Below, piece after piece: positions 1-31,708 of a DNA stretch of 31,708 nucleotides. A program made the position numbers and the translations under genes. Where the stretch lies: contig JALIHJ010000091.1 in assembly GCA_022984795.1 (NCBI GenBank), positions 1 through 31,708 on the forward strand, read 5' to 3'. The number at the start of each line of letters is the position of its first letter. Within the stretch, counting starts at the first letter, position 1. The notes beneath the pieces are model-generated. The model was not told the DNA's origin. It ran no database searches and was given only the letters and a program-made list of their open reading frames with translations. This DNA is from Fabrea salina (lineage: Eukaryota; Ciliophora; Heterotrichea; Heterotrichida; Fabreidae).

Positions 1-1271
1 TCTTTGTGTTCCTGTGATCATCGATATCAGTTGAATGAGGATAGCAATGACTGTGAGTTGGCTTACCCAAACGAACGCCACAGCCATCAGCACCAACAAG
101 AAAGGTTAAACAGACATTTAAAACTGAGATCGGCGCTGTTTGTCGATTCCATTAATCCGTCTGTTTAACCTAACGCCTGTCGCTCCTCTTCGGCGTCTGC
201 TTGAGTGCGCTTGATCGCGCATTTGTCAGCGGCGGCTTACTGGCTCTGAGGACACTTTAAGGATGAGTCTTTCGAGAAGAGGATTCTAAGGTCATTAACT
301 ACAGTCGAATTTAGCTCCTTCCCAAACACTCACTACTCTCAAATACGATTTGACTCCAACCTGCTTTGTGCTGGTGAGTGAAGCATCACTGTTCTTCCAT
401 GACTGCAACGATCTATGGGCGCCATTGCAGGTCTTCAGGTCTAAATTGATGCAGCCAAACAGGTTCCAACTGCCATTCTTCAGATAAATTCAAATTGTTG
501 TACTTATTAGGTTCTGGATTCAGACCTACCTTGGTTCAGATTGGCTATACTCTAATAATTCAACTTCACTTTAGAACAAGATAAGTAGTTTCGAACTTCT
601 TCAGTTGAGTCAGCTATTCTTGATTCCCAAATGTGGTATTCTCTACTAACACTCTGGTTATCTTCCTCTGTGATCAACAAAGACCAAGTGCAGTCAAACT
701 CAACTGACTCCAGGTTCTACGAAACTTTGGGAAGCTTGTTCCCACAGGTTCAAGTGTATTCTTCATGGACCCTCACCTGCAGTCTTCATTCTCAAAGAAC
801 TCCTGTTTGCAGCTAGTCTATTTACCAAGTGATTTCCACACTGCATTCAGGAGTAATTAACCTTTGTTCTTTAGGTTTCTGACATATTGGCGGTTAGACC
901 TACAAGAACCATGAGACCTCATGAGCAACATCCTTCCATTCTTTGAAACACAGGAGTAACTCAAGTCTTTTAATTTAAATGCTGCAACAGATTTAGGGGC
1001 TGGAGGCTTTAGAAACAGTCATTATATGCGGGTCTCAACGGGATCTTTGTTGATTCGGTCTAACACCGGTTCTGGCGGGACTCAATCACGAACTCACATC
1101 TTGCACCAAAGAAACAGCCTGACCGAAGTATGGCGCGGCAAATTACAGTCGATCTGTTAGTTGTGCAGTCCTGGCGCTCATATGGCGCAAAGGTCAATCA
1201 ATAACGAGATAATTCGGAAGCTACTTTTCGTTGTAGTCGTTGAAGTTGCTTGCTGCCTAACGCCTGGCGCA
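1..1271. other. Gene-less left region, first part
   Basis: I find no supportable gene in this stretch: open frames are short (61 codons at most before the microsatellite), lack recognisable domains and look unlike the dense coding that starts at 2438. The plus strand is rather pyrimidine-rich, and two patches (about 140-250 and 1020-1200) are rich in CpG compared with the rest. These patches contain short inverted repeats (see 103-221; also TTCGGTC at 1054-1060 with GACCGAA at 1121-1127). An 11-nt direct repeat, CCTAACGCCTG, occurs at 169-179 and 1256-1266. It could be an intergenic spacer, a decayed element or an RNA-bearing region; the sequence alone does not decide. Confidence 0.5.
103..221. 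repeat. Cluster of inverted repeats in a CpG-rich patch
   Basis: A perfect 13-bp inverted repeat, AGGTTAAACAGAC at 103-115 and its reverse complement at 159-171, encloses 43 bp. It is followed by two short hairpins: ACGCC/GGCGT (about 173-198) and TGCGC-ttgatc-GCGCA at 206-221. The cluster could be a structured RNA, a short inverted-repeat element or chance in a GC-rich patch. No other copy of the 13-mer is seen in the window. Confidence 0.4.
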
Positions 1272-1546: not shown

Positions 1547-2437
1547 AACAAAACTAAATAAGGAAGCAATGATTAAACAGAACAGAGTAGCAAGTCTACT
1601 TTGTCTTTCTGTTAGAGATGCAAAGTCAGGAAAAGACTACTCAGTAGGAAGACAGTGCTCAAAGATAACTAGTGAAATGAACAGAAGCTCAGAAAGTGGA
1701 TTAGCTTAGTAGAATAGTAAGTCAATAAGCAATCCAAGCTCTAAAAGACACTGCATACGCCAAAGCCTAGCTGAAAGAACAACCACAGCCAAGACTCTAA
1801 ACCATCGAGAGATGCAAAGAAGACTTCAGAAGAAGTGAACTCGAAGAAGCTAGGAACGCTGCACAAAAGCTCAAAGGAACAGAGAAGCTACAACTAGTAC
1901 GCTGAAGAAGTAGAACCTCGGAGTAATACAAGACACTCAGCAGAGACTTAAGAAGCAGAAAAACAATCATGGTACGTAGCATAGCACCAACATTACTTAA
2001 GTATTGCTTTATGCAAAAGAACACGAAGAGTAGCTTAAACGCAATGTGCACAAAGGTAACATCTGATTACATCAAGAAACTAGCACTACAAAAGAGTTGG
2101 TTTGGACATGGCAACCTAGAAAACATTTCGAGTTGGAACACTCCAGAAGAAGCTACAGAGACCAAGAGTTGGAGTTAGAAATTCACCAACCTTTGCAACT
2201 TAGAATCAAGTTTGTAATAAACCACAAACTAATCAAACTATTCGATTGAAGCATCAGATTGAATAGAGCACTAAGCATACCAGTGGACTTATTTCTGACA
2301 AGAAGGCACTGGCATAGCTAAGGTAGTCTGGAATATCATGGATAAAGGATCAAGTATTAATTCATGACAACCCTAAGTCCTCAACATTTACAGATTCAAT
2401 TAAGTTATTTGAAGTAAATCAGGTGAATTAAGTAAAT
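1547..2437. other. Purine-rich region without a gene
   Basis: The plus strand is strongly purine-biased here, as plus-strand genes of this window are, but every frame is interrupted by TAA, TAG and TGA. The longest open pieces (69 codons plus, 84 codons minus) have no recognisable domain. In one plus frame (about 1801-2178) codons such as GAA, AAG and AGA give charged, helix-like stretches between stops, so a badly decayed gene is conceivable but not supportable. The last 30 bases before 2438 are A/T-rich and probably hold the promoter and leader of the beta-helix gene. Confidence 0.45.
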
Positions 2438-5400
2438 ATGAAGCTCTTTTTCGTCGCACTGCTTTGGAAACTAGTTCTATCTGAAGGACTCGAAAGTAAG
2501 ACAGTGGGCATTCCCGGAGATTTCCAGAGCCTCACGGAAGCTTTGAATTCAATCGAAGACAACAGCGAAGTTGAATTGGAGCTCAGTGACTATTGTTTTC
2601 CACCTTGCAGTACCATAGATTCATTTACTTGTCCCTTGAGTTTCAAGAATCTGAAAATAAAAGGACAAGGAGTTTATTCGACAATTATTTCTTTTGGTGA
2701 AAATGCTTTGCTAAACATTACTAAAGGCAATCTGACAATTGAAAGTTTGTCTGTTGCGCAATACCACGAAGGAGAAAAGTCTATTCTGGTAGAGACCCGA
2801 GACGAACTTAAGTTGACAAGCGTAAGGTTTACCGGAATATCAACTAGAGAAGTCATTAGTGCTAAAGGAAGCATCAAAATGCAAGACGTTCATTTTGATA
2901 AGATCAATGCTATAAAAATAGTTTCTTTAGAGGGTTCAGACTTCACGTATAGAGAAGGAACACTAAGAGAAATAAATTCCGCAAGCTTTCTAGACTTCAA
3001 AGGTAGTGGGAATGTCAACATCAGTGAAGTAGACTTTACTGAAGTTATCAACGGGGCTATATCGCTGAGGGAATTTGGAGGAGATTTCACCGCAACCTCT
3101 TTATCACTAGAAAATTTCAATTCAGAACTTTTTTTGGTAATTGAATCTAAATCACCCAATAGCAAATTCAATTTCAGAGACTTAAATGTAACAGAGTCAG
3201 TAGTTACAAGATTGATTTATTCCTTGCTATATACAAACCTGGATATAACTATTGAGAATATCAGAATTACTGATTCTGTGTTCCTGGATTACCCTATACT
3301 TGCGGCTTGCCCCTTTGAGAATGATTTGTCATCTAAGCTTAAGTTATCAAATATCGATTTATCAAACACAACTTATAGGCGGACTTTTTTCTCCATTTAC
3401 GGCATTAATGACGTAAGTGTAAGCAATATCAATGCCCAGAACATTGGAAAATACTCAGTCCAACTGGGAACGGGAGAGCTTTCTGGAGAGGGTTTAAGAA
3501 ATGTCAGTTGTAATTCCTTGATCATAATTCACGCAGCAGAAAGTGTGAATATTAACCAGGTTTTTGTGGATAATATGAGTTGCAGTAACGTTGGTGTGGA
3601 AAAGTCAGTATATCTCCCGGAAGAGTTTGCTATGGTGGTTTCTGTCTTTGGGTCTGGAAGCCTGAGCATATCAGACCTAGAATTGAGTAATATCGCAGGA
3701 GACCCAAAGAATGGTTTGGCCTTTAACTTCAACGGCTTCCAAAATCTTCATTTAGAAGAAGTAAACTTGAAGAATTTAACTAGTGATAAGGGTTCAATTG
3801 GAGTAATCAGTTCAGTTCAGAATGTTACGATAAAAAACTTCAAGTGTGAAGACTGCATTGAAAATCAAGCAGGAAATATCTGCATTCAACCAGTTGAGAG
3901 GCTCATGATACAAAATTTTACCTGCAAAAACTGTGAGTCTAGATCTGGAAACGGAGGGGCCCTTGCTCTGAAGCCATCAACCTACCGAGAAGAGGGCACA
4001 CTAATTGAATTGAAGGACTGCTCTTTCAGCAACTGTAAAGCTGAGAAGGGCCGAGGAGGTGCGATTCTTTTGGAATCCTTTTCTGTTGAGTTTCCACTTA
4101 AAGTGGAGCTTGAGAATATTGTTTTCAAAACAGTAACTGCTGAAAGGGGGTCTGGGATCTATATAAACAAGCTTGTTAATTTCGAGAAAGGAACTTTGAA
4201 AAAAATCCGATTTTCTGAAGCCCACAGTTCTGGAGGAGCTCCTATAGAAGATAACCATAGTTCCGGAACACTCCAAGTTAGTGATTGTGCTGTCAAAAAC
4301 TCGACAGGGGATTACTGTTTTCTGAGGGGCTCTTACTCCAAAGAATCAAAGGTTCTAGAGATTACTGACTCCCGAATCGAGGGGTCTAAGTGTGATAAAA
4401 GTGTGGTGTCTTTAGAGTCATTGCAAACAAACACTAAAGTAGTTTTGGAAAACTTGACTTTCACTTACGACTCAAATATCCTTGACTTAAAAAGCATCCA
4501 AGTCGGAGCTAACGAACTGGTTTTGAAGGATAATTCTGGGTATGTCATTTCAAGTAGGAGGGATTCAAACTTAGACTTCCAAAATCTCCACGTCGAAAAA
4601 CAAAGTGGTTCTTTGATAGAAGCTTCCAGGAGTTTCTTCAAGTGCACTCAGTGCTCATTCAACCAGAGTACAGGCTTGTTATCCTTCCAGATGATACAAG
4701 ATTCAGCATTTAACTTGAGCCACTTTAAACTCACAAAGAATAGTTTCAACGAGTCCGCAATTTTTATTTCGAACTCTGAGCAAAACAAAAGCTTTATTGA
4801 AAACAGCGTCTTCAAAGAGAACTACTCAGAAAAAGGCAGCTTGATAAACTTAGGGTACTCTAGTCTTGAGGTTTCGAATTCCAGCTTCGAAAGGAATTCG
4901 GGTGGCCCTGATTCTTTTAGTCCTGTGCTTGCTTTGAAAAATTCTGAATCTCGGATACTCAACTCGAACTTCAGCGAGAGTGAAGGACAGAAAGGAAGCT
5001 TTATTTATGCCCTGGAAAGCCACTATATTGAAATAGCCGGTTGCAAGTTCAACGACGGGAAAGCAAAAACTGGAGGGGGAATAGCCCTTGTAAATTCAAA
5101 CTTGCTAGTTCGAGACTCAGAATTCAAGGACCACTCAGCTGAAAAAGGGGGAACGATTTGGGGGATCGTTCAATCTTCTGTTGATTTGAAAAGGTGCAAG
5201 TTCACTAACTCAATGGCTAGCGATTTGGGAGGAGTTGTTTATACTGACGAAGGGCAACTAGTAGTAGAAGAAACTACAGTTACTGGCTCTAGTTCATCAG
5301 CTTTTTACTTGCAGGAAGCAAGCAACATCTTTGTAAAGGACTCGAAGTTTGAGTTTTGCTCTGGAGAAAAGGGGAGTGCTATTTACTCAAAAAACTCAGA

Positions 5401-23834: not shown

Positions 23835-25067
23835 TTATTCAGTTTCTAAAAGGAAGTAGTTGGACTTGTCTCTGTGGAGCAACTTAAACCTGATGCAAAA
23901 AGGTATGTACACACAACTAAAAACTAGTCCCACGCAAGACATCACCAGCATTGATGTTTCAAACCCTAGCCAGTGCACCATGAACCCAGAAACTAAAGGC
24001 CCTGCAATGTCTCCTATTGAAAACGCAAAAGTAAAGATTCCACTAATGGCGTCCTGGAGTTGGTCTGTTTTTTTGAAGCCTGCTATCTGAGCTATTTCAG
24101 CCATTGCTGTCATGGTAGCACTGAAAGGACAAGCTAATGACACTCCAATAGAGGCCAATGCTGCAAAGGTCAATACAGGACCTGTTTGGTACCAGGAGGG
24201 TACAAGTGCCATCATTAAACTGCAGACCACAAGCGACACTGACTGAACTAGTTTAATGTCTAGTTTGTCTATAGTAAAAGAAAGCACTAAACAAGTCACA
24301 CAGTAACCTAAACAACTCATCAGAAAAGCCACTCCAATCGTACTTACTGAGTAACCCAAACTGTCGAGGTAAGGACCTAAACTAGGGTCTAGAAAAGTGA
24401 TGCAAGTGTTTACGTACACTAACAACACTGCGTCTAGTATTATGTTTGTGTTTTTAAGCAGTCCGCTGAGTCTGAACTCACTAGAAGAAGCTTCGAGTGA
24501 ACTTCCAGGCTTAACAAACACCACTACTAAGACAACAAGCAACACAAAGGGTGCTGCTGCTGCCAGTGCTATTCCTGTGAAACCCAAAACTTGGTAGGCT
24601 GCTGCTCCTAAAGTAGGTCCAATAGTTAAGCCAATGCCTCCGAAGAACTCAGCAGCAGGCAAGTACTTTTGTGCATTTTCTGGGTAGTCTGAAGTGATTA
24701 TAGCGCACCCAGAAGTGTACACAAAGGCCATTGCTACACCCCCTACCATTCTTGAACCAAAGCTCATTACTACGAACCAAGTGTTGTCTAAGTAAACTAT
24801 GAACGCCAGCATCAATAGAGCTACTGAGGCTAGGAGTAAGCCTGCTGCAATTACTGTGCGTCTTCCTAAACTAGATAGGTTGTTTCCGACCCACAAAGAC
24901 AGTGGAATGCTGACAGCAGCCATAGAACTAAACACCATGCCAATGACCCAAGAAGGCACCCCTCTTGTTTGGGCAGTTACTGGGTAAATCACAGCTATGA
25001 GTGTGTACAGCAAGTTAATCAGCATAAGGGACAGAAAAATCACTCCTAGTTTGGGGTCGATTCCCAT
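23835..25067 (-). CDS. MFS transporter, SLC18B1-like
   Basis: This 410-residue protein has about twelve hydrophobic helices in two halves with a short central loop (VKPGSSLEASSSE), the major facilitator fold. The loop after helix 2 carries motif A in the form GNNLSSLGRRTV. Helices 4 and 5 hold small-residue motifs such as FFGGIGLTIGPTLGAAAY, close to antiporter motif C. The overall pattern fits the DHA1/SLC18 group, including the vesicular polyamine transporter SLC18B1; substrate and compartment are not determinable. Its stop lies 1 bp from the converging DRG2 stop. Confidence 0.85.
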   Translation of the reverse strand: MGIDPKLGVIFLSLMLINLLYTLIAVIYPVTAQTRGVPSWVIGMVFSSMAAVSIPLSLWVGNNLSSLGRRTVIAAGLLLASVALLMLAFIVYLDNTWFVVMSFGSRMVGGVAMAFVYTSGCAIITSDYPENAQKYLPAAEFFGGIGLTIGPTLGAAAYQVLGFTGIALAAAAPFVLLVVLVVVFVKPGSSLEASSSEFRLSGLLKNTNIILDAVLLVYVNTCITFLDPSLGPYLDSLGYSVSTIGVAFLMSCLGYCVTCLVLSFTIDKLDIKLVQSVSLVVCSLMMALVPSWYQTGPVLTFAALASIGVSLACPFSATMTAMAEIAQIAGFKKTDQLQDAISGIFTFAFSIGDIAGPLVSGFMVHWLGFETSMLVMSCVGLVFSCVYIPFCIRFKLLHRDKSNYFLLETE

Positions 25068-25079
25068 TTATAGTAGTCA

Positions 25080-25535
25080 TTATTTACAAAGCTTAATTAA
25101 CTGGAGTTGGGACTCTAGGTTCCTTAACTTCTTGGCAAGCACTGCAACTTTTTGGCACAGTTTAATTTTCAAAAGGTTCTTTTTGTTAGACTGAACACTT
25201 ACACTACTGGCTTGTTTGCTCACTGAGCACTGTTTGGAGTCCTTTCTGGCAGAATCAGACCTGAAGTCTTCAATGATCATGTTTTGCCTTTCAAGCTGAA
25301 CAAGCACTTCTTCGAGGTAGGGAAAAAACTCAGTCTCTTGAAAAGAAGTTACTAAAAAAGAGTCTGAGTCAGTTACTGAAAGGTCCTCTTCACAAGGAAT
25401 GCTTTTCAAGAAGCTCGAAGGAATGGATCTTCTGTGAAAAGGCTTCTTGATCACCCTTTCGATTTGTTTGTTCAAGGAGTCTAGTTTTTCTTCCAACTTG
25501 CAGTCTTCATCACTCAAAACCAGTTCTTCTTCCAT
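25080..25535 (-). CDS. Small coiled-coil protein, unknown
   Basis: Starting at the inner Met (MEEELVLSDEDC) this is a 151-residue protein with no recognised family. It has an acidic start, a first short helix (KLEEKLDSLNKQIERVIKK), a Ser-rich middle and a C-terminal basic coiled coil (KKNLLKIKLCQKVAVLAKKLRNLESQL). The Met ten codons upstream would overlap the stop of the upstream methyltransferase gene, whereas the chosen start leaves a 17-bp A/T-rich spacer (ATAATTTATA) like those before other minus-strand genes here. Confidence 0.7.
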   Translation of the reverse strand: MEEELVLSDEDCKLEEKLDSLNKQIERVIKKPFHRRSIPSSFLKSIPCEEDLSVTDSDSFLVTSFQETEFFPYLEEVLVQLERQNMIIEDFRSDSARKDSKQCSVSKQASSVSVQSNKKNLLKIKLCQKVAVLAKKLRNLESQLQLIKLCK

Positions 25536-25552
25536 ATAATTTATATTAGCAA

Positions 25553-26749
25553 TTACTTGTCCCAAAGGTCAGATTCTTTCATGGCTTCAGCCCACTTTCT
25601 AAACTCTTTTTCACTGTCTTTGGTTCTTGGACGCCCTTTCAAGGCTCTTTCGTACTGCTTAGCTTTTTCTTCGTGCTCGTGAACAGAGTCCTGGGTGAGG
25701 AAGTCTTCTGGTTGGAACCCTATTCCTTGGCCGGGTTCATGAAGGTCTCCTTGTTCCTCAGTAGCTTCTTGGGCCATTTCTTCCATGTCTTCCATTTCGA
25801 CTTGTTCTTGGAACTCGTCCTCTTCTGTTGTGTAGTCTTCGGAGGACTCAGGCAGTTTGGCTTTGCCTTCTTTGTATTCTTGAACGAGTTTTTCGATTTG
25901 TTCGTAAGTTTCAGGAATCTTCTGCATAAAGCTTGGTTTTTGTTTTCCTTCAAACAGCTTTTCAAGCATCTCGCTTTCGTCGTTTGCAAAACTGTATTTT
26001 TCTGGGTTGATTTCGAAGCCTTTGGACCTGACCCCTTCCTCAAATTTTGGGTCGATTTCTATGTTTGCAGCTTTGGAAATACTTAAGAGTTCTGCAACTT
26101 TATCTTCATTAGAAGTTTCAACTTTTGGACCAGTGCCTAGTTTCCAGCCCCTGCACAGGTAGTACAACTCGCGCGACTGAGGTCTTGAAGCGTTTGGCTT
26201 CACTCTGTGAATGGACTTGAAAAAGGGTTTGAAGGAGCTAAAAGTCTCAGCTTCGTCAACCCCGCCTAGCATCTTAATTAAAGCAGTCCCTCCAGGCTTG
26301 AGTGTGTAATTAGCAATCTTAAGTGCTTCCCAGTTAAGATTTGCAATGAAAGCACAGTCTATGTCTTTGTTTCCAGAGTGGTTTGGAGACATGTCGCTCA
26401 GCAAAACGTCTACAGGGGACTTCCACACGTTGAGTATCTCGTCAATGGAGTTTTCAGAAGTAATGTCAAGTTCCAAAACAACAGCTCCAGGAACCTCTTT
26501 GATGGGAAGCAAGTCCACTGCCAGAACTAAAGGAGCCTCAGGTTCAGACCCAACAGCTTTCACTGCAACTTGAGTCCAACCCCCTGGAGCTGCTCCTATG
26601 TCCAGAACTTTCATGCCACCGTGCCTTTTGTTGATTTCAAGTAACTTGTAAGCACTTCTGCTTCGGTAGCCTTCTTTTTTAGAGAGTTTCACGTAAGGGT
26701 CTGAAGTGTGTCTTTTCATCCACTGGTTGAAGAACCTCCTTATTTTCAT
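25553..26749 (-). CDS. MRM2: RlmE/FtsJ-family rRNA 2'-O-methyltransferase (MRM2-like)
   Basis: This is a 398-residue protein with an FtsJ domain at about 10-215: YRSRSAYKL (catalytic Lys), the SAM-binding VLDIGAAPGGWTQVA, LLSDMSPNHSG (catalytic Asp), GTALIKML (Lys) and SRELYYLCRG (Glu), so the K-D-K-E tetrad is complete. The basic, amphipathic N terminus (MKIRRFFNQWMKRH) could be a mitochondrial presequence, which favours MRM2, methylating the large mitochondrial rRNA A-loop, over Spb1 or Trm7. A C-terminal extension of about 180 residues is acidic and Gln/Glu-rich and absent from typical MRM2 (about 245 residues). The open frame runs on upstream to 26995, but that part lies over the Claspin-like gene and is not needed. 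Confidence 0.85.
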   Translation of the reverse strand: MKIRRFFNQWMKRHTSDPYVKLSKKEGYRSRSAYKLLEINKRHGGMKVLDIGAAPGGWTQVAVKAVGSEPEAPLVLAVDLLPIKEVPGAVVLELDITSENSIDEILNVWKSPVDVLLSDMSPNHSGNKDIDCAFIANLNWEALKIANYTLKPGGTALIKMLGGVDEAETFSSFKPFFKSIHRVKPNASRPQSRELYYLCRGWKLGTGPKVETSNEDKVAELLSISKAANIEIDPKFEEGVRSKGFEINPEKYSFANDESEMLEKLFEGKQKPSFMQKIPETYEQIEKLVQEYKEGKAKLPESSEDYTTEEDEFQEQVEMEDMEEMAQEATEEQGDLHEPGQGIGFQPEDFLTQDSVHEHEEKAKQYERALKGRPRTKDSEKEFRKWAEAMKESDLWDK

Positions 26750-26782
26750 GGAAGTATGACTTAGTAATTCGGGGTTTAAAAA
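26750..26782. promoter_or_regulatory. 33-bp head-to-head spacer
   Basis: An A/T-rich spacer lies between the methyltransferase ATG (minus) and the proposed ATG of the Claspin-like gene (plus, 26783), ending in GTTTAAAAA, an A-rich start context like those of other plus-strand genes in the window. Confidence 0.4.
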
Positions 26783-28325
26783 ATGGAGGGAGAATCCCCT
26801 AAAAAGGCGCTTAAAGCGTACTTCAGAAGTTACTGGGCAAACAAACCCTGCTGAAGGCATAGAAAACCAACCTGACCCCAACATTCCTAGGGAAAGCTTA
26901 GTTTCCGAGAAACCCACTAAAAAGAAACCAAAAACCAACAAAAAGATTAAAGCTCCTAAGTTCGAAGTACTCAACAAGTTAGTTGACCCACACAAAACTG
27001 AAGAACAAATAACTGAATTCGAGTTTTTGAGAGACCAGCCTCTTCAACTCGAGTCTAAGTCTAGAAAGTCCAAAGACTTCACTCAACTACTTCAAAAGTT
27101 CAAACAACATAAACAAGACAAAGTTAGTTTCTACTTAGCCAAAGGCGTTCTGACTAACAACCAAAGCGAAGACTTACTGGAGATAAGTACTCCACAAAAA
27201 ATAGAGGGCTTTATTAGTAAAAAAAAGGTCTCCGATCCCAGAGAACTTTTAAGGGAACGTCTTAAGTTTTCAGTCAACGAAAGGAAGACCGGACACCTAG
27301 ACCCTCAAAACGTGTTTGAAAAGTCTAAAACAGACTTAGAAGGAACTAAAAAACAAGAAGAAGAAGACAGCGACTTTTTGCCTGAAAGTGAAGAAGAACA
27401 AGCTGCTGAACTCCAAAGACTAATAGACATCGAAGAAGGCAATCAAAAAGACCCTGAAAACCAAACAGCCGAACCAAAGGAAGCTGAGTCTGAGCTCCAA
27501 GAAGTTGAGTCAGAGCAGTCTGAGCTAGAACAAGATGAGTTGGAAGAAAACAAATGGGAACAGACTGACCAAAAAGAACTTAAGGAAACCGAAGAAACCC
27601 ACTTGCCAGTGTTTGCTCCGAACTTAGTACCAAAAGCAATTACTAAGAAAAGGTACTCTTCCAAGTTCTTTGACGAAGAAGCAGAGTTAGGGTCTGACCA
27701 CGAAGAACACGACAACATAGTAAAGCGTTCCAACGAGTCCGAAGAAGAAAGACCAGAAGACGACCAAGACTTACCTGAACTTGTAGACTACTCCCAAGTA
27801 GAACTCAGCCAAGAAGACCTTGCAAACAAGCACATGGGAGACATGATAGCCCAAGACCAACTGGACCTGAAAAAGGTTATAAACGCAGACTTCAAAAGGA
27901 AAAGGTTTGAGTTTCTCGAAGACACTTCTGGACTAGTTTCTAAGAAGATGAAACTAATCCAACAGAGAAAAGACCAACTCGAAAGCAGGGAAAACGGAGT
28001 GTTCACCAAAACCACAGAAGTCTTTTCAAAAGCTCAAGTAGACCCTGAAGACGAAGACTACGAAAGTGTAAAGTTGCTCCAAAGCTCTTTAGAAATGAAA
28101 CTCCTGAGCAACCAGTTTGCTCCAAGTTTTGTAATTGACGAAAAGTCCAAAAGCTTACTTAACCTAATCGGGGCTCCTGAAGTCAGAACAGGCAGCAGGA
28201 GTCTTTTAGGCGACTCTGAAAAGTCTGAAAGTCTCAGAGTGTTTTCTGGGTCAACTAACTTTGCATCCAACAAGTCGTATGTGTTCTCTAAAGACAAAAA
28301 ACTGCACAATGCTAGAAGTAATTAG
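26783..28325 (+). CDS. Claspin/Mrc1-like replication checkpoint protein, frame break near start
   Basis: The product, about 513 residues, is highly acidic and rich in Glu, Lys and Ser. Residues about 290-390 (SSKFFDEEAELGSDHEEHD, ELVDYSQVELS, DLKKVINADFKRKRFEF) match the MRC1-like domain of Claspin/Mrc1, with its DEAE-x-SD-x-E acidic core and downstream basic helix. The C terminus contains the segment TNFASNKSYVFSK. Claspin couples replication forks to checkpoint kinase signalling. The long frame is open from 26760 but has no ATG before about residue 350. The best start, ATG at 26783, is one base out of frame; one A fewer in the AAAAA at 26801-26805 would join them (MEGESPKRRLKRTSEV). No 15- or 16-nt GT-AG intron fits there. 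Confidence 0.6.
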
Positions 28326-28608
28326 TAACAGTTCTTAAAGTATTCAAATTAGTTGGAAAGTAATAAATATGAACCCCTTGGCAGACTGTGTCAAGCAGTA
28401 AGTGTTGCTCAAATAGCCACTCCGAACAGACAGACTACTAGTTTTGTGTGTTTGTGGCCTGAGTAGTCTGTTCTCATTTGGTTTCCCCAAAATGACTCAG
28501 AATCAAACAACTACTGAACTGAGTTATAGAAGGCAAATCCAAATCCTGCAAGGACAGACGAAATTGGATGCATCACTCCTTTTAGAATGGTGCTGTTAAA
28601 AACCCTAA
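28326..28608. other. 283-bp convergent spacer with hairpin
   Basis: This is the longest spacer of the gene-dense part; other convergent gene pairs here are separated by 0-30 bp or overlap. It has an AATAAA about 40 nt after the Claspin-like stop (28364-28369) and a hairpin whose arms GACAGACTACT (28429-28439) and AGTAGTCTGTT (28462-28472) pair over 11 positions with one G-U and a 22-nt loop. No open frame longer than a few codons stands out, and no tRNA or known snRNA signature is visible. A small RNA gene or 3' UTRs are the likely contents. Confidence 0.5.
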
Positions 28609-29562
28609 TTAACTAATTTTAAGCGTATATATATAGCCTTCTAGTGTACTTAAAAACACGTTTTCTTGCCTCACACAAGCACTCTAAGTAACTATTACTG
28701 AAAACATGACTTCACAAGGTAGTTTTTCAACTAACTCTAAGTGGAGACTCTTAGTGTCCACCACAAACACAGTTGAGTTGCCGGCTGCAACTAATTTGTC
28801 TTTAACAAACACACAAACTTCCACCAGCACAAACTCTTCTCCTGACCTTTTGAAAACTCCCTTAGTGACAGTTAGAGGCACTTCCACTACTTGCCAAGTT
28901 CCTAGTTTAACCAAGGTAGCACAGCCTTCTCCCGTGACCCCGCTTCTCGTTCCGCTTAAGCATACCCAGTCTCCATTGCAGCTTGGAACCTGAGTGGGGT
29001 TGAAGCTTTCTGTGGATTCTACGTACTCAAGCACAAAAACCAGTTCTTCTCTGTGCCAAACTCTGGTGCAAAAGTCACTTCCCTGGGAAATCAAGTAGTC
29101 TCCACTCACACAAATTCCTTTCACCCAGCCTTCATGGGCCTTTATTTGGCTTTAGGCTCCACTGCACACTCTTCCTCAGAAACTCTTACAGAGAAAAACT
29201 TAACGAAGTTGTCGAAAGAACAAGTAATCAGGGACTCCTGAGTCCAAACTACAGTACTTATGTCTAGCACATGCAAATTCAAGCGCAAAGTACTTTTCCA
29301 CTCAGACCTGATTTTTCTCACAATGAAAAGACATCCCATAGAGCACCCTGCAGCAATACAATTGGCCTTAAAAGGACTCCAAGAAACGCTCAGAATTTCC
29401 GTTCCTAGGTTCAACTTGTGCCTCAACACTGCAGTCTTGAAGCAAGTAAACACCAACTGCACTTTCTTCTGCAGTGCACAGCTTCTTGGAATCGCACCTG
29501 ACATCTAGAGAATTGATTCCTGAAGCACTATTTATGCCTTCTAGCCATTTTCCTGCCATCAT
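28609..29562 (-). CDS. Short HIRA/CAF-1 p60-like WD40 protein, with intron and frame break
   Basis: The gene, about 308-313 codons, encodes WD40 blades: GTEILSVSWSPF...AAGCSMGCLFIVRK, TVVWTQESLITCSFDNFVKFFSV, AHEGWVKGICVSGDYLISQGSDFCTRVW, and a last blade ending ENVFLSTLEGYIYTLKIS. The order and the KAHEGWVKG segment resemble HIRA and CAF-1 p60 (CHAF1B), histone H3-H4 chaperone subunits, without their long tails. A 15-nt intron (28684-28698) is needed for the last blade and the TAA at 28609. The frame also changes twice upstream. Near 29451 this is explained by a 16-nt intron or one extra A in GAAAG. Near 29145, one A missing in CTAAAG would restore VEPKSQIKAHEGW. I start at the Met at 29562; earlier Met codons would overlap the neighbour. 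Confidence 0.68.
28684..28698 (-). other. 15-nt spliceosomal intron
   Basis: On the minus strand GTAATAGTTACTTAG holds the in-frame TAG; removing it extends the WD40 protein by 24 residues that form the expected last blade. It has T9-A10-C11 and a CTTAG end like the intron at 13625. Confidence 0.85.
29436..29451 (-). other. Possible 16-nt intron
   Basis: On the minus strand GTTTACTTGCTTCAAG is 16 nt, starts at a codon boundary and would bring the first exon into the frame of the next blade. It lacks the T-A-C at positions 9-11 seen in the three 15-nt introns, and removing it deletes a strand that looks like part of a WD blade, so a single-base indel in a nearby A run is an equal alternative. 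Confidence 0.35.
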
Positions 29563-29599
29563 GTAATTCCTAGTAATTAACTTGTTGAATAATTGGATA
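29563..29599. promoter_or_regulatory. 37-bp head-to-head spacer
   Basis: A strongly A/T-rich spacer (TAGTAATTAA, TTGAATAATTGGATA) lies between the WD40 gene start (minus) and the IPT/PA14 gene start (plus). It probably holds the bidirectional promoter. Confidence 0.4.
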
Positions 29600-31293
29600 A
29601 TGGTTTTTTCTTTATTGATCATGTTTGTGCTAAGCAATGCTGTTCAAATAGACAGAATGGCTACTCCTTACAAAGGCAAACAGGATCCAGACTCATTTTA
29701 CGGTCTCAGCAGTGTGTTTTTTAGTGGGACTTTTGACTTAGACAGTTCCCACTACACCGTTACAATCGGAGGGGGAGAATTGCGAAATAATCTCTTTGAG
29801 TCAGACCGAGCTTGAGTGTCTGATTCCTCCGTGGGACTCTGGCGACGCCAGCAATGCTGAACTGAGAGTTGAGCACAATGGCTCTGAAGTATACTCAAAA
29901 AATCTTAACCATGGCGATGCCTACCCCATCATTACCCTTACCAGAAATGAAGCCTCAGCTAGGGATGAATTTCACGTTTTCCAGCTTTGGAGCAATAGTG
30001 ATGAGGTTTCCACAGGGCTAGTAAACAATGAGCCTTTGGTAACTAAACCAGGGTGGGACCAAGCACACTTCATTGGAGGGGAAAGCTGAACTCGGAAGTA
30101 ATGTTCACGGAGATTCTAAAATCAACCTTGAAGTTAACGGAAACAAAGAAGCTGATTTGATGTGGACAGGGGCTGGCTATACGCTTGAAGGGGAAGAATA
30201 CTTCTTTAGAACTATTGCTTCGGTAGACAGCATCTCTCATAGTGAAGGCAGCAGCTTAGGGGGACTAGAAGTAACTATTAACGGAAGGTCGTTTCCAAGT
30301 GAAGTCAGCAGAATCAAAGTAGAGATAGATGGAACTAGCTGTGAGGTGAGCAGTGCTAGTTTTAGTAGCATCACTTGCATAACTGGACCTTACTACAAGA
30401 TTAATCAGGAAAGCCACTATGAAGGAAGTGCTGGGCTGTTTAGGGAGGTATATGATTATCATAATAACACCCTAGATTTGAAAGGGTGTATTCCTAACTC
30501 TAATTCCCACTATTCCTTGAGAAAGAACTTGAAAATTTACGGCTACTTTAAAGCTCCGAGAACAGGAGAATACACTTTTTATGCAGGTACGAATACTGAA
30601 GCCCAAATTTTTCTAAGCACAGATGCTGATCCTTCGAATAAACATGAAATTCTGCGTGTAAGTCCTTGGTCAGTCCCTTCACTGCATTTCTACGGCTCAT
30701 ATAAGTCTGATAAAATACTATTATCAAATGACCAGTTGTACTACTTAGAAGTAGACCACGAAAACTGTTGTGACATTGGATTCTTCTCACTAGGGGTAGA
30801 AATTTCAGGCGACGGAAATCTTCACAGAAACAAAATGCCTTTAGTTAAGAAAGTAAGCACTTCTAGCTTGCATCCCTCTACCCCTATTGAGTACGAAGGG
30901 CATCTTAAGGATATAGGCAACTTTAATTGTAGTGATCTAGATGCAAAAAGATACTATCAAGAACAAGTAGCTTCCCAATACTTCAACCTTTACACTTATT
31001 GCGCAAGTGGGCATCTTTATGTAGTAGTGCCCGGGTACATGAATCCTCAACCAGAAGACTTGAAGTTCAGGGACGCTAGTGGCAATACAGTAGACGGAGA
31101 ACTCCTTCACCAGCCCTCGGACTCTCAATTCTGGTTTGTGATCCCTTCTGACTTCTTAGGAACATACCCGAAACCAAGCCTCAACTCAGGATCTGGAGTA
31201 GACGACAGACTAGCTATGTGCACAGGGGATTGTTCTTTTGAGTACAAGAATGTGCCTGTAATAAGAGGAGGTGTTAGGGTGTTAGGGTGTTAG
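29600..31293 (+). CDS. IPT/TIG-PA14 surface protein (PKHD1L1-like), truncated by telomere
   Basis: The protein begins with a signal peptide (MVFSLLIMFVLSNAVQ). An IPT/TIG domain follows, with the typical GGENCEIISLSQTELECLIPP ending. The next region contains a second IPT domain (SVDSISHSEGSSLGGLEVTINGRSF...CEVSSASFSSITC). Then comes a PA14 domain (YSLRKNLKIYGYFKAPRTGEYTFYAGTNTEAQIFLS...LYYLEVDHENC), the fibrocystin-L pattern of large ciliary or surface glycoproteins. The frame shifts twice by one base, in GGGGG (29771-29775) and GGGG (30076-30079). One G fewer at each site gives a continuous 563-codon frame that scores as IPT throughout. The coding sequence then runs into telomere repeats after VPVIRGG, where the next IPT domain would start, and takes its TAG from the repeat. 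It is therefore a 5' fragment of a larger gene. Confidence 0.82.
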
Positions 31294-31708
31294 GGTGTTA
31301 GGGTGTTAGGGTGTTAGGGTGTTAGGGTGTTAGGGTGTTAGGGTGTTAGGGTGTTAGGGTGTTAGGGTGTTAGGGTGTTAGGGTGTTAGGGTGTTAGGGT
31401 GTTAGGGTGTTAGAGATTGTTAGGGTGTTAGGGTGTTAGGGTGTTAGGGTGTTAGGGTGTTAGGGTGTTAGGGTGTTAGGGTGTTAGGGTGTTAGGGTGT
31501 CAGGGTGTTAGGGTGTTAGGGTGTTAGGGTGTTAGGGTGTTAGGGTGTTAGGGTGTTAGGGTGTTAGGGTGTTAGGGTGTTAGGGGTGTTAGGGGTGTTA
31601 GGGTGTTAGGGTGTTAGGGTGTTAGGGTGTTAGGGTGTTAGGGTGTTAGGGTGTTAGGGTGTTAGGGTGTTAGGGTGTTAGGGTGTTAGGGTGTTAGGGT
31701 TAGGGTTA
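31271..31708 (+). repeat. Telomere: TGTTAGGG repeats, G-rich strand to the right
   Basis: About 54 tandem copies of the 8-nt unit TGTTAGGG run to the end of the window in the orientation of a right-hand chromosome end. The unit equals CCCTAACA on the other strand, known as the heterotrich ciliate telomere. A few units vary: TTAGAGATTG near 31411, GTCAGGG at about 31499-31505 and two 9-nt units (TTAGGGGTG) near 31581-31598. The last 15 bases are TTAGGG hexamers rather than octamers. Confidence 0.97.

Follow-up and report, generated by a model that had tools for sequence, protein, structure and literature searches.

A telomere joined directly to the coding sequence of a membrane-protein family gene at a contig end of the heterotrich ciliate Fabrea salina

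Chromosome ends that fall imprecisely within genes are already known in ciliates. For the heterotrich Blepharisma stoltei, which has a gene-dense macronuclear genome and telomeres of the 8-base unit CCCTAACA, the available part of the genome report (PMC9942806) describes telomeres at many internal sites and counts 46,705 potential alternative telomere addition sites (ATAS), of which 38,686 occur on one read. About 30% of telomere addition sites lie in coding regions in Paramecium bursaria, alongside heterogeneous minichromosomes (PMC7702705, in its accessible sections), and in Tetrahymena and Euplotes programmed breakage associated with the CBS and E-CBS motifs, respectively, is healed by a de novo telomere, as described in the accessible portion of PMC7599177. 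Telomeres of Fabrea are not treated in the available sections of PMC11308186.

Here we describe a probable further case of an in-gene chromosome end, in Fabrea salina. The window that we analysed spans contig C94 from end to end (31,708 bases), one of the 103 contigs that make up the 18,328,466-base assembly. The macronuclear genome of this species is among the smallest in free-living ciliates. Between positions 2400 and 28330 of C94, where 17 long ORFs were picked from the ORF list, stop-to-stop frames cover 96% of the sequence; the stops of these ORFs (2432–28325) are TAA in 13 cases, TAG in four and TGA in none. No tRNA gene was found in the window. The neighbour of the cut gene discussed below is a WD40-repeat gene on the minus strand (28684–29643), read in three overlapping frames that reflect either tiny introns or frame errors; we dropped these shifts as a sign of low coverage, since tiny introns could explain them.

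At the right end of C94, the telomere array (31269–31708, plus strand) consists of TGTTAGGG units with a few variant units (53.4 copies over 31270–31700, 97% match). This is the repeat present at other contig ends, and on the opposite strand it reads CCCTAACA, as in Blepharisma. The junction reads ...GTGCCTGTAATAAGAGG|AGGTGTTAGGGTGTTAGGG, with the array directly abutting IPT/TIG-family coding sequence and no spacer between them. As at ATAS, the telomere repeat of the species is joined to internal, non-subtelomeric sequence. The paralog on contig C54 shares with the window every one of the 70 bases that end at 31268, and the two then diverge (CTTCTCTCAG against AGGTGTTAGG). The boundary thus falls at about 31268/31269, two bases to the left of the position marked in the preliminary description of this DNA, whose claim of a direct join between gene and telomere otherwise stands. 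Because the C54 copy carries on in frame at the very point where the window turns telomeric, this 70-base identity indicates that a longer gene has been cut here. The earlier proposal that the residues VPVI at the edge begin a further IPT repeat is supported by the C54 copy, where the residues go on VPVIRGFSQSSNTVRITGGNFP; Pfam recognises three TIG stretches in the protein of that copy, whereas two window frames have one apiece, with the match in the first of these frames scoring below the Pfam cut-off.

The last frame of the gene (30043–31293) is open across the junction and ends at a TAG, at 31291–31293, that lies within the array. Reading TGA as tryptophan (table 4) adds no length to the frame at the junction, and computation shows that each phase of the telomere unit, on either strand, runs into a stop within eight codons. 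We infer that chance does not account for a frame that stays open for about 400 codons at the contig edge and aligns to longer paralogs.

The earlier statement that the gene is open up to the telomere holds for this last frame, but the gene as a whole needs three, which tblastn with the C54 protein and the related protein P0001 as queries places at about 29600–29770, 29775–30086 and 30079–31287. The first frame (29600–29815, plus strand) opens with an ATG at 29600 and, by eye, a signal-peptide-like start (MVFSLLIMFVLSNAVQ), aligns to C54 residues 1–58 and ends at the stop at 29815. The second (29775–30089, plus strand, from tblastn and Pfam), which contains the IPT/TIG stretch below the Pfam cut-off, has a frame shift at a run of five G residues, as against four in the copy on contig C24. 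The third (30079–31268, plus strand, within the stop-to-stop ORF that runs out into the array) carries an IPT/TIG stretch and a weak PA14/GLEYA match. PA14 is listed for four of six relatives (P0001–P0006), but neither the window piece (E 0.038) nor the C54 protein reaches the Pfam cut-off for this domain.

Alignment by eye with C24, C54 and P0001 located four frame changes, each a small insertion of G or C and none of them a stop made by substitution; relative to C54, a two-base insertion at 31167–31168 and a one-base insertion at 31198 cancel each other. Either consensus error or pseudogene decay could have produced the breaks. Since the gene is split over three frames, no long protein can be read from its ATG as assembled, and since two of the breaks lie between the signal-peptide-like start and the rest, we find no support for a functional product in the form of the shortened secreted protein suggested earlier. 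In its truncated form this copy probably does not work as a gene.

The cut gene is a member of a large family of IPT/PA14/laminin-G/TRP-like membrane proteins. The assembly search scored the best candidates alone and its match lists are lower bounds: there are at least 109 protein matches at E 0.01 or better, in places several to a gene and in some cases containing stops, and at the DNA level close to the full 1.7 kb is matched in at least seven other places, with 68–77% identity. Many paralog frames measure 1150–1570 aa (shorter, longer and stop-bearing ones also occur), as compared with 416 aa in the window, and the C54 copy can be read in one frame over at least 1053 aa. None of P0001–P0006 is a covering copy of the cut gene, the best match over the 393-aa window piece being 69.5% (P0001). 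P0006 comes from transcriptome MMETSP1345, which the accessible part of PMC6859813 assigns to Fabrea salina; its best matches among the compared loci, the copies on C99 and C68, are 86% identical over 617–618 aa, and against the window piece it covers 77 residues at 79% identity.

When the whole assembly was searched by DNA, by protein and by pattern, the best-scoring candidates included other family members but no uninterrupted version of the cut gene, and no second copy of its flank (25500–29600) was found. The search for a continuation elsewhere in the genome, as previously proposed, thus recovered longer paralogs that run through the junction, as well as the 3′ half of a family gene on contig C79 (see below), but no continuation of this copy, which goes halfway towards the outcome that the preliminary description had named as its own refutation. 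An orphan continuation of this copy may go unrecognised in such searches.

The sequence immediately before the junction is itself a mosaic. Over the tract at 31019–31268 (plus strand), the alignment of the window with C54 has 250 columns and shows three substitutions and two insertion events, whereas upstream of 31019 the two are 41–87% identical in 80-base bins. Two of the three substitutions are shared with other family members, which rules out our earlier candidate reading of the tail as C54 sequence with errors and makes the tract look like a product of gene conversion. Comparable mosaics, likewise suggestive of gene conversion, are seen among the copies on C72, C3 and C99, which are 61–87% alike in 200-column bins from alignment columns 2000 to 3800 and 93–99% alike over about 800 columns further downstream.

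To place this end among others, we drew a sample of 28 left contig ends, 20 by contig number and eight from small contigs. Telomere was present at 24 of the 28 and the junction was visible in 22; with C95 and C96 (junction not reached) and C98 (25 bases past the junction) left out, 21 ends were judged. An ORF of at least 100 aa was open at the telomere at one of these, on C5, and at 20 of the 21 there was none; the left ends of C22 and C101, with 90 and 62 open codons, are borderline cases. At the left end of C5, a 398-aa frame runs out into the telomere; a copy on C39 matches the last 99 bp of this frame with two mismatches and then goes on for at least 134 codons, to the limit of the sequence compared. 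The C5 sequence (C5:1–2200, L061) represents a second multicopy family, found in at least 16 further places at 77–88% DNA identity and telomere-cut at C5; by eye, the C39 copy extends to an apparent membrane span.

A targeted look at 11 ends added the left end of C79, where telomere is followed by the 3′ half of a gene from the same family as that on C94, open for at least 506 codons; the other 10 showed no clear in-gene telomere end. The left ends of C47 and C54 are without telomere, and that of C72 has 92 open codons. By eye, broken family copies start about 100–140 bases from the telomere at the left end of C78 and the right end of C67, and a family gene ends about 120 bases from the telomere at the left end of C99. 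No in-gene telomere was found at the right ends of C72, C78, C79 and C99, and no long frame is open at the telomere at the right end of C1. We also noted, at the left tip of C102, which is without telomere (C102:1–1000, L097), a 321-aa ORF that by eye resembles the end of a LINE reverse transcriptase.

The three in-gene ends lie on small contigs (C94, 31.7 kb; C79, 62.7 kb; C5, 11.0 kb) and all fall in multicopy families. GC content over the 300 bases beside the telomere separates them from ordinary ends only partly, with 0.22–0.46 at the 20 sampled ends measured (C5, at 0.41, among them), 0.40 at C79 and 0.47 at C94. With homology reaching the junction at C94, and with C79 and C5 as further in-gene telomere sites in the same genome, as is also typical of ATAS, the earlier conclusion that the telomere was added within a gene and not in a spacer is supported.

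How does this locus compare with the described systems? The ATAS of Blepharisma, as presented in the available part of PMC9942806, were seen on single HiFi reads and are typically in the minority at a given site, whereas C94 is known as an assembly end alone and no uncut version of it was seen. P. bursaria belongs to another class and has another telomere repeat (PMC7702705, accessible sections); in-gene ends look rarer in Fabrea than coding-region addition sites do there, although contig ends and reads are different samples. Unlike in breakage of the CBS and E-CBS types (PMC7599177, accessible portion), neither motif lies near the C94 junction: in a search of the window, the closest match to the Tetrahymena core (one mismatch) was at 26864 and the closest E-CBS at 24015, with counts near chance. 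According to the same portion of PMC7599177, the Tetrahymena motif is itself eliminated with flanking DNA and would thus be absent from a macronuclear window in any case.

Taken together, these data make it somewhat likely, in our judgement, that the telomere at the right end of C94 is genuine and was added de novo within a family gene, where the site is imprecise or alternative. A macronuclear chromosome would have broken inside the gene, presumably during macronuclear development, at an imprecise or alternative site as opposed to a programmed intergenic one, and telomerase may have been primed by G residues at the broken end. At such a site other copies in the polyploid macronucleus would probably keep the whole gene, so that cut and uncut forms would coexist and the C94 telomere may sit on only some copies of the chromosome. 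The direct junction between gene and telomere, the homology of longer paralogs that runs through it, the shared telomere repeat and the two similar ends on C79 and C5 speak for this explanation. That 20 of 21 judged ends lack a long open ORF, in a genome where frames fill nearly all of the C94 interior, favours alternative addition, and together with the heterotrich precedent (PMC9942806, available part) makes alternative macronuclear fragmentation the better supported of the two options offered in the preliminary description. Against it, no uncut gene and no second copy of its flank was found in the assembly, although uncut copies, if in the majority, would be expected to extend the assembly; the frame breaks of the gene and the indels of the left tip (see below) suggest that the contig ends may be weakly supported by reads or poor in sequence quality; three in-gene ends are few, and C79 came from a targeted look; and GC beside the telomere does not cleanly divide the classes of end.

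A version of the second of these options appears unlikely to us: a fixed end at which every macronuclear copy stops, leaving a pseudogene that is truncated for good and tolerated because its family is large and redundant. It would account for the lack of a continuation in the assembly, for the contig stopping where it does and for the three frames needed to read the gene, but it sits poorly with the 20 of 21 judged left ends at which no long ORF is open at the telomere, and the frame changes, as small G or C insertions unaccompanied by substitution stops, are more like consensus error than decay.

We regard as similarly doubtful an assembly artefact, in which the contig tip would derive from a few noisy reads at a repeat, joined to a telomere-bearing read from another copy of the family. 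Both tips of C94 do fall in this one family: the left tip (244–1061, plus strand), which has no telomere, is an indel-ridden relative of the family's 3′ coding part. Its DNA matches at least 13 other stretches of the assembly, one of which, on C30, is open coding sequence, while the six family proteins gave no tblastn match to it at E 1e-3. A CTTTT-type pyrimidine microsatellite lies further in, at 1275–1546. Non-triplet gap events reach 6.56 per 100 bp in the left tip, as against 0.43–2.05 in five comparisons between family members, although these controls cover the 5′ part of the family and the tip its 3′ part. The left tip is raw-read-like or badly decayed; the leap in identity to C54, to 97–98% for the last 250 bp alone, also fits a misjoin. 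However, the right side of C94 has 0.89–2.23 nucleotide gap events per 100 bp (seven comparisons), about the control level, and we therefore no longer took indels in the right tail as showing that coverage is low. The substitutions that the tract shares with other family members (two of three) mean that it is not simply C54 with errors, gene conversion can account for it as for the similar mosaics in three other copies, and C79 and C5 show the same pattern with long intact frames.

A wider reading, that large multicopy membrane-protein families are preferred sites of breakage in this macronucleus, at which telomere addition would keep making 5′-only and 3′-only genes, with the telomere as a universal stop, strikes us as quite improbable. 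That the right end of C94 and the left end of C79 are halves of one gene, cut once and healed at both ends with the loss of about 240 bp, is very unlikely: they do hold the 5′ and 3′ parts of one family with a gap that fits, by eye, at about 75–80 codons, but their nearest relatives differ (C24:196900 at 77% for the C94 part, C31:63602 at 75% for the C79 part; the latter reaches only 67% against C24:199147, the 3′ part of the same C24 gene), even if such differences are not decisive in a mosaic family.

The right end of C94 offers a concrete junction between gene and telomere that can be checked, in a heterotrich whose macronuclear genome is very small. It also carries a warning for annotators that gene models at the contig ends of this assembly may be truncated: with the telomere repeat itself supplying the stop, they should be left out of counts of complete genes.
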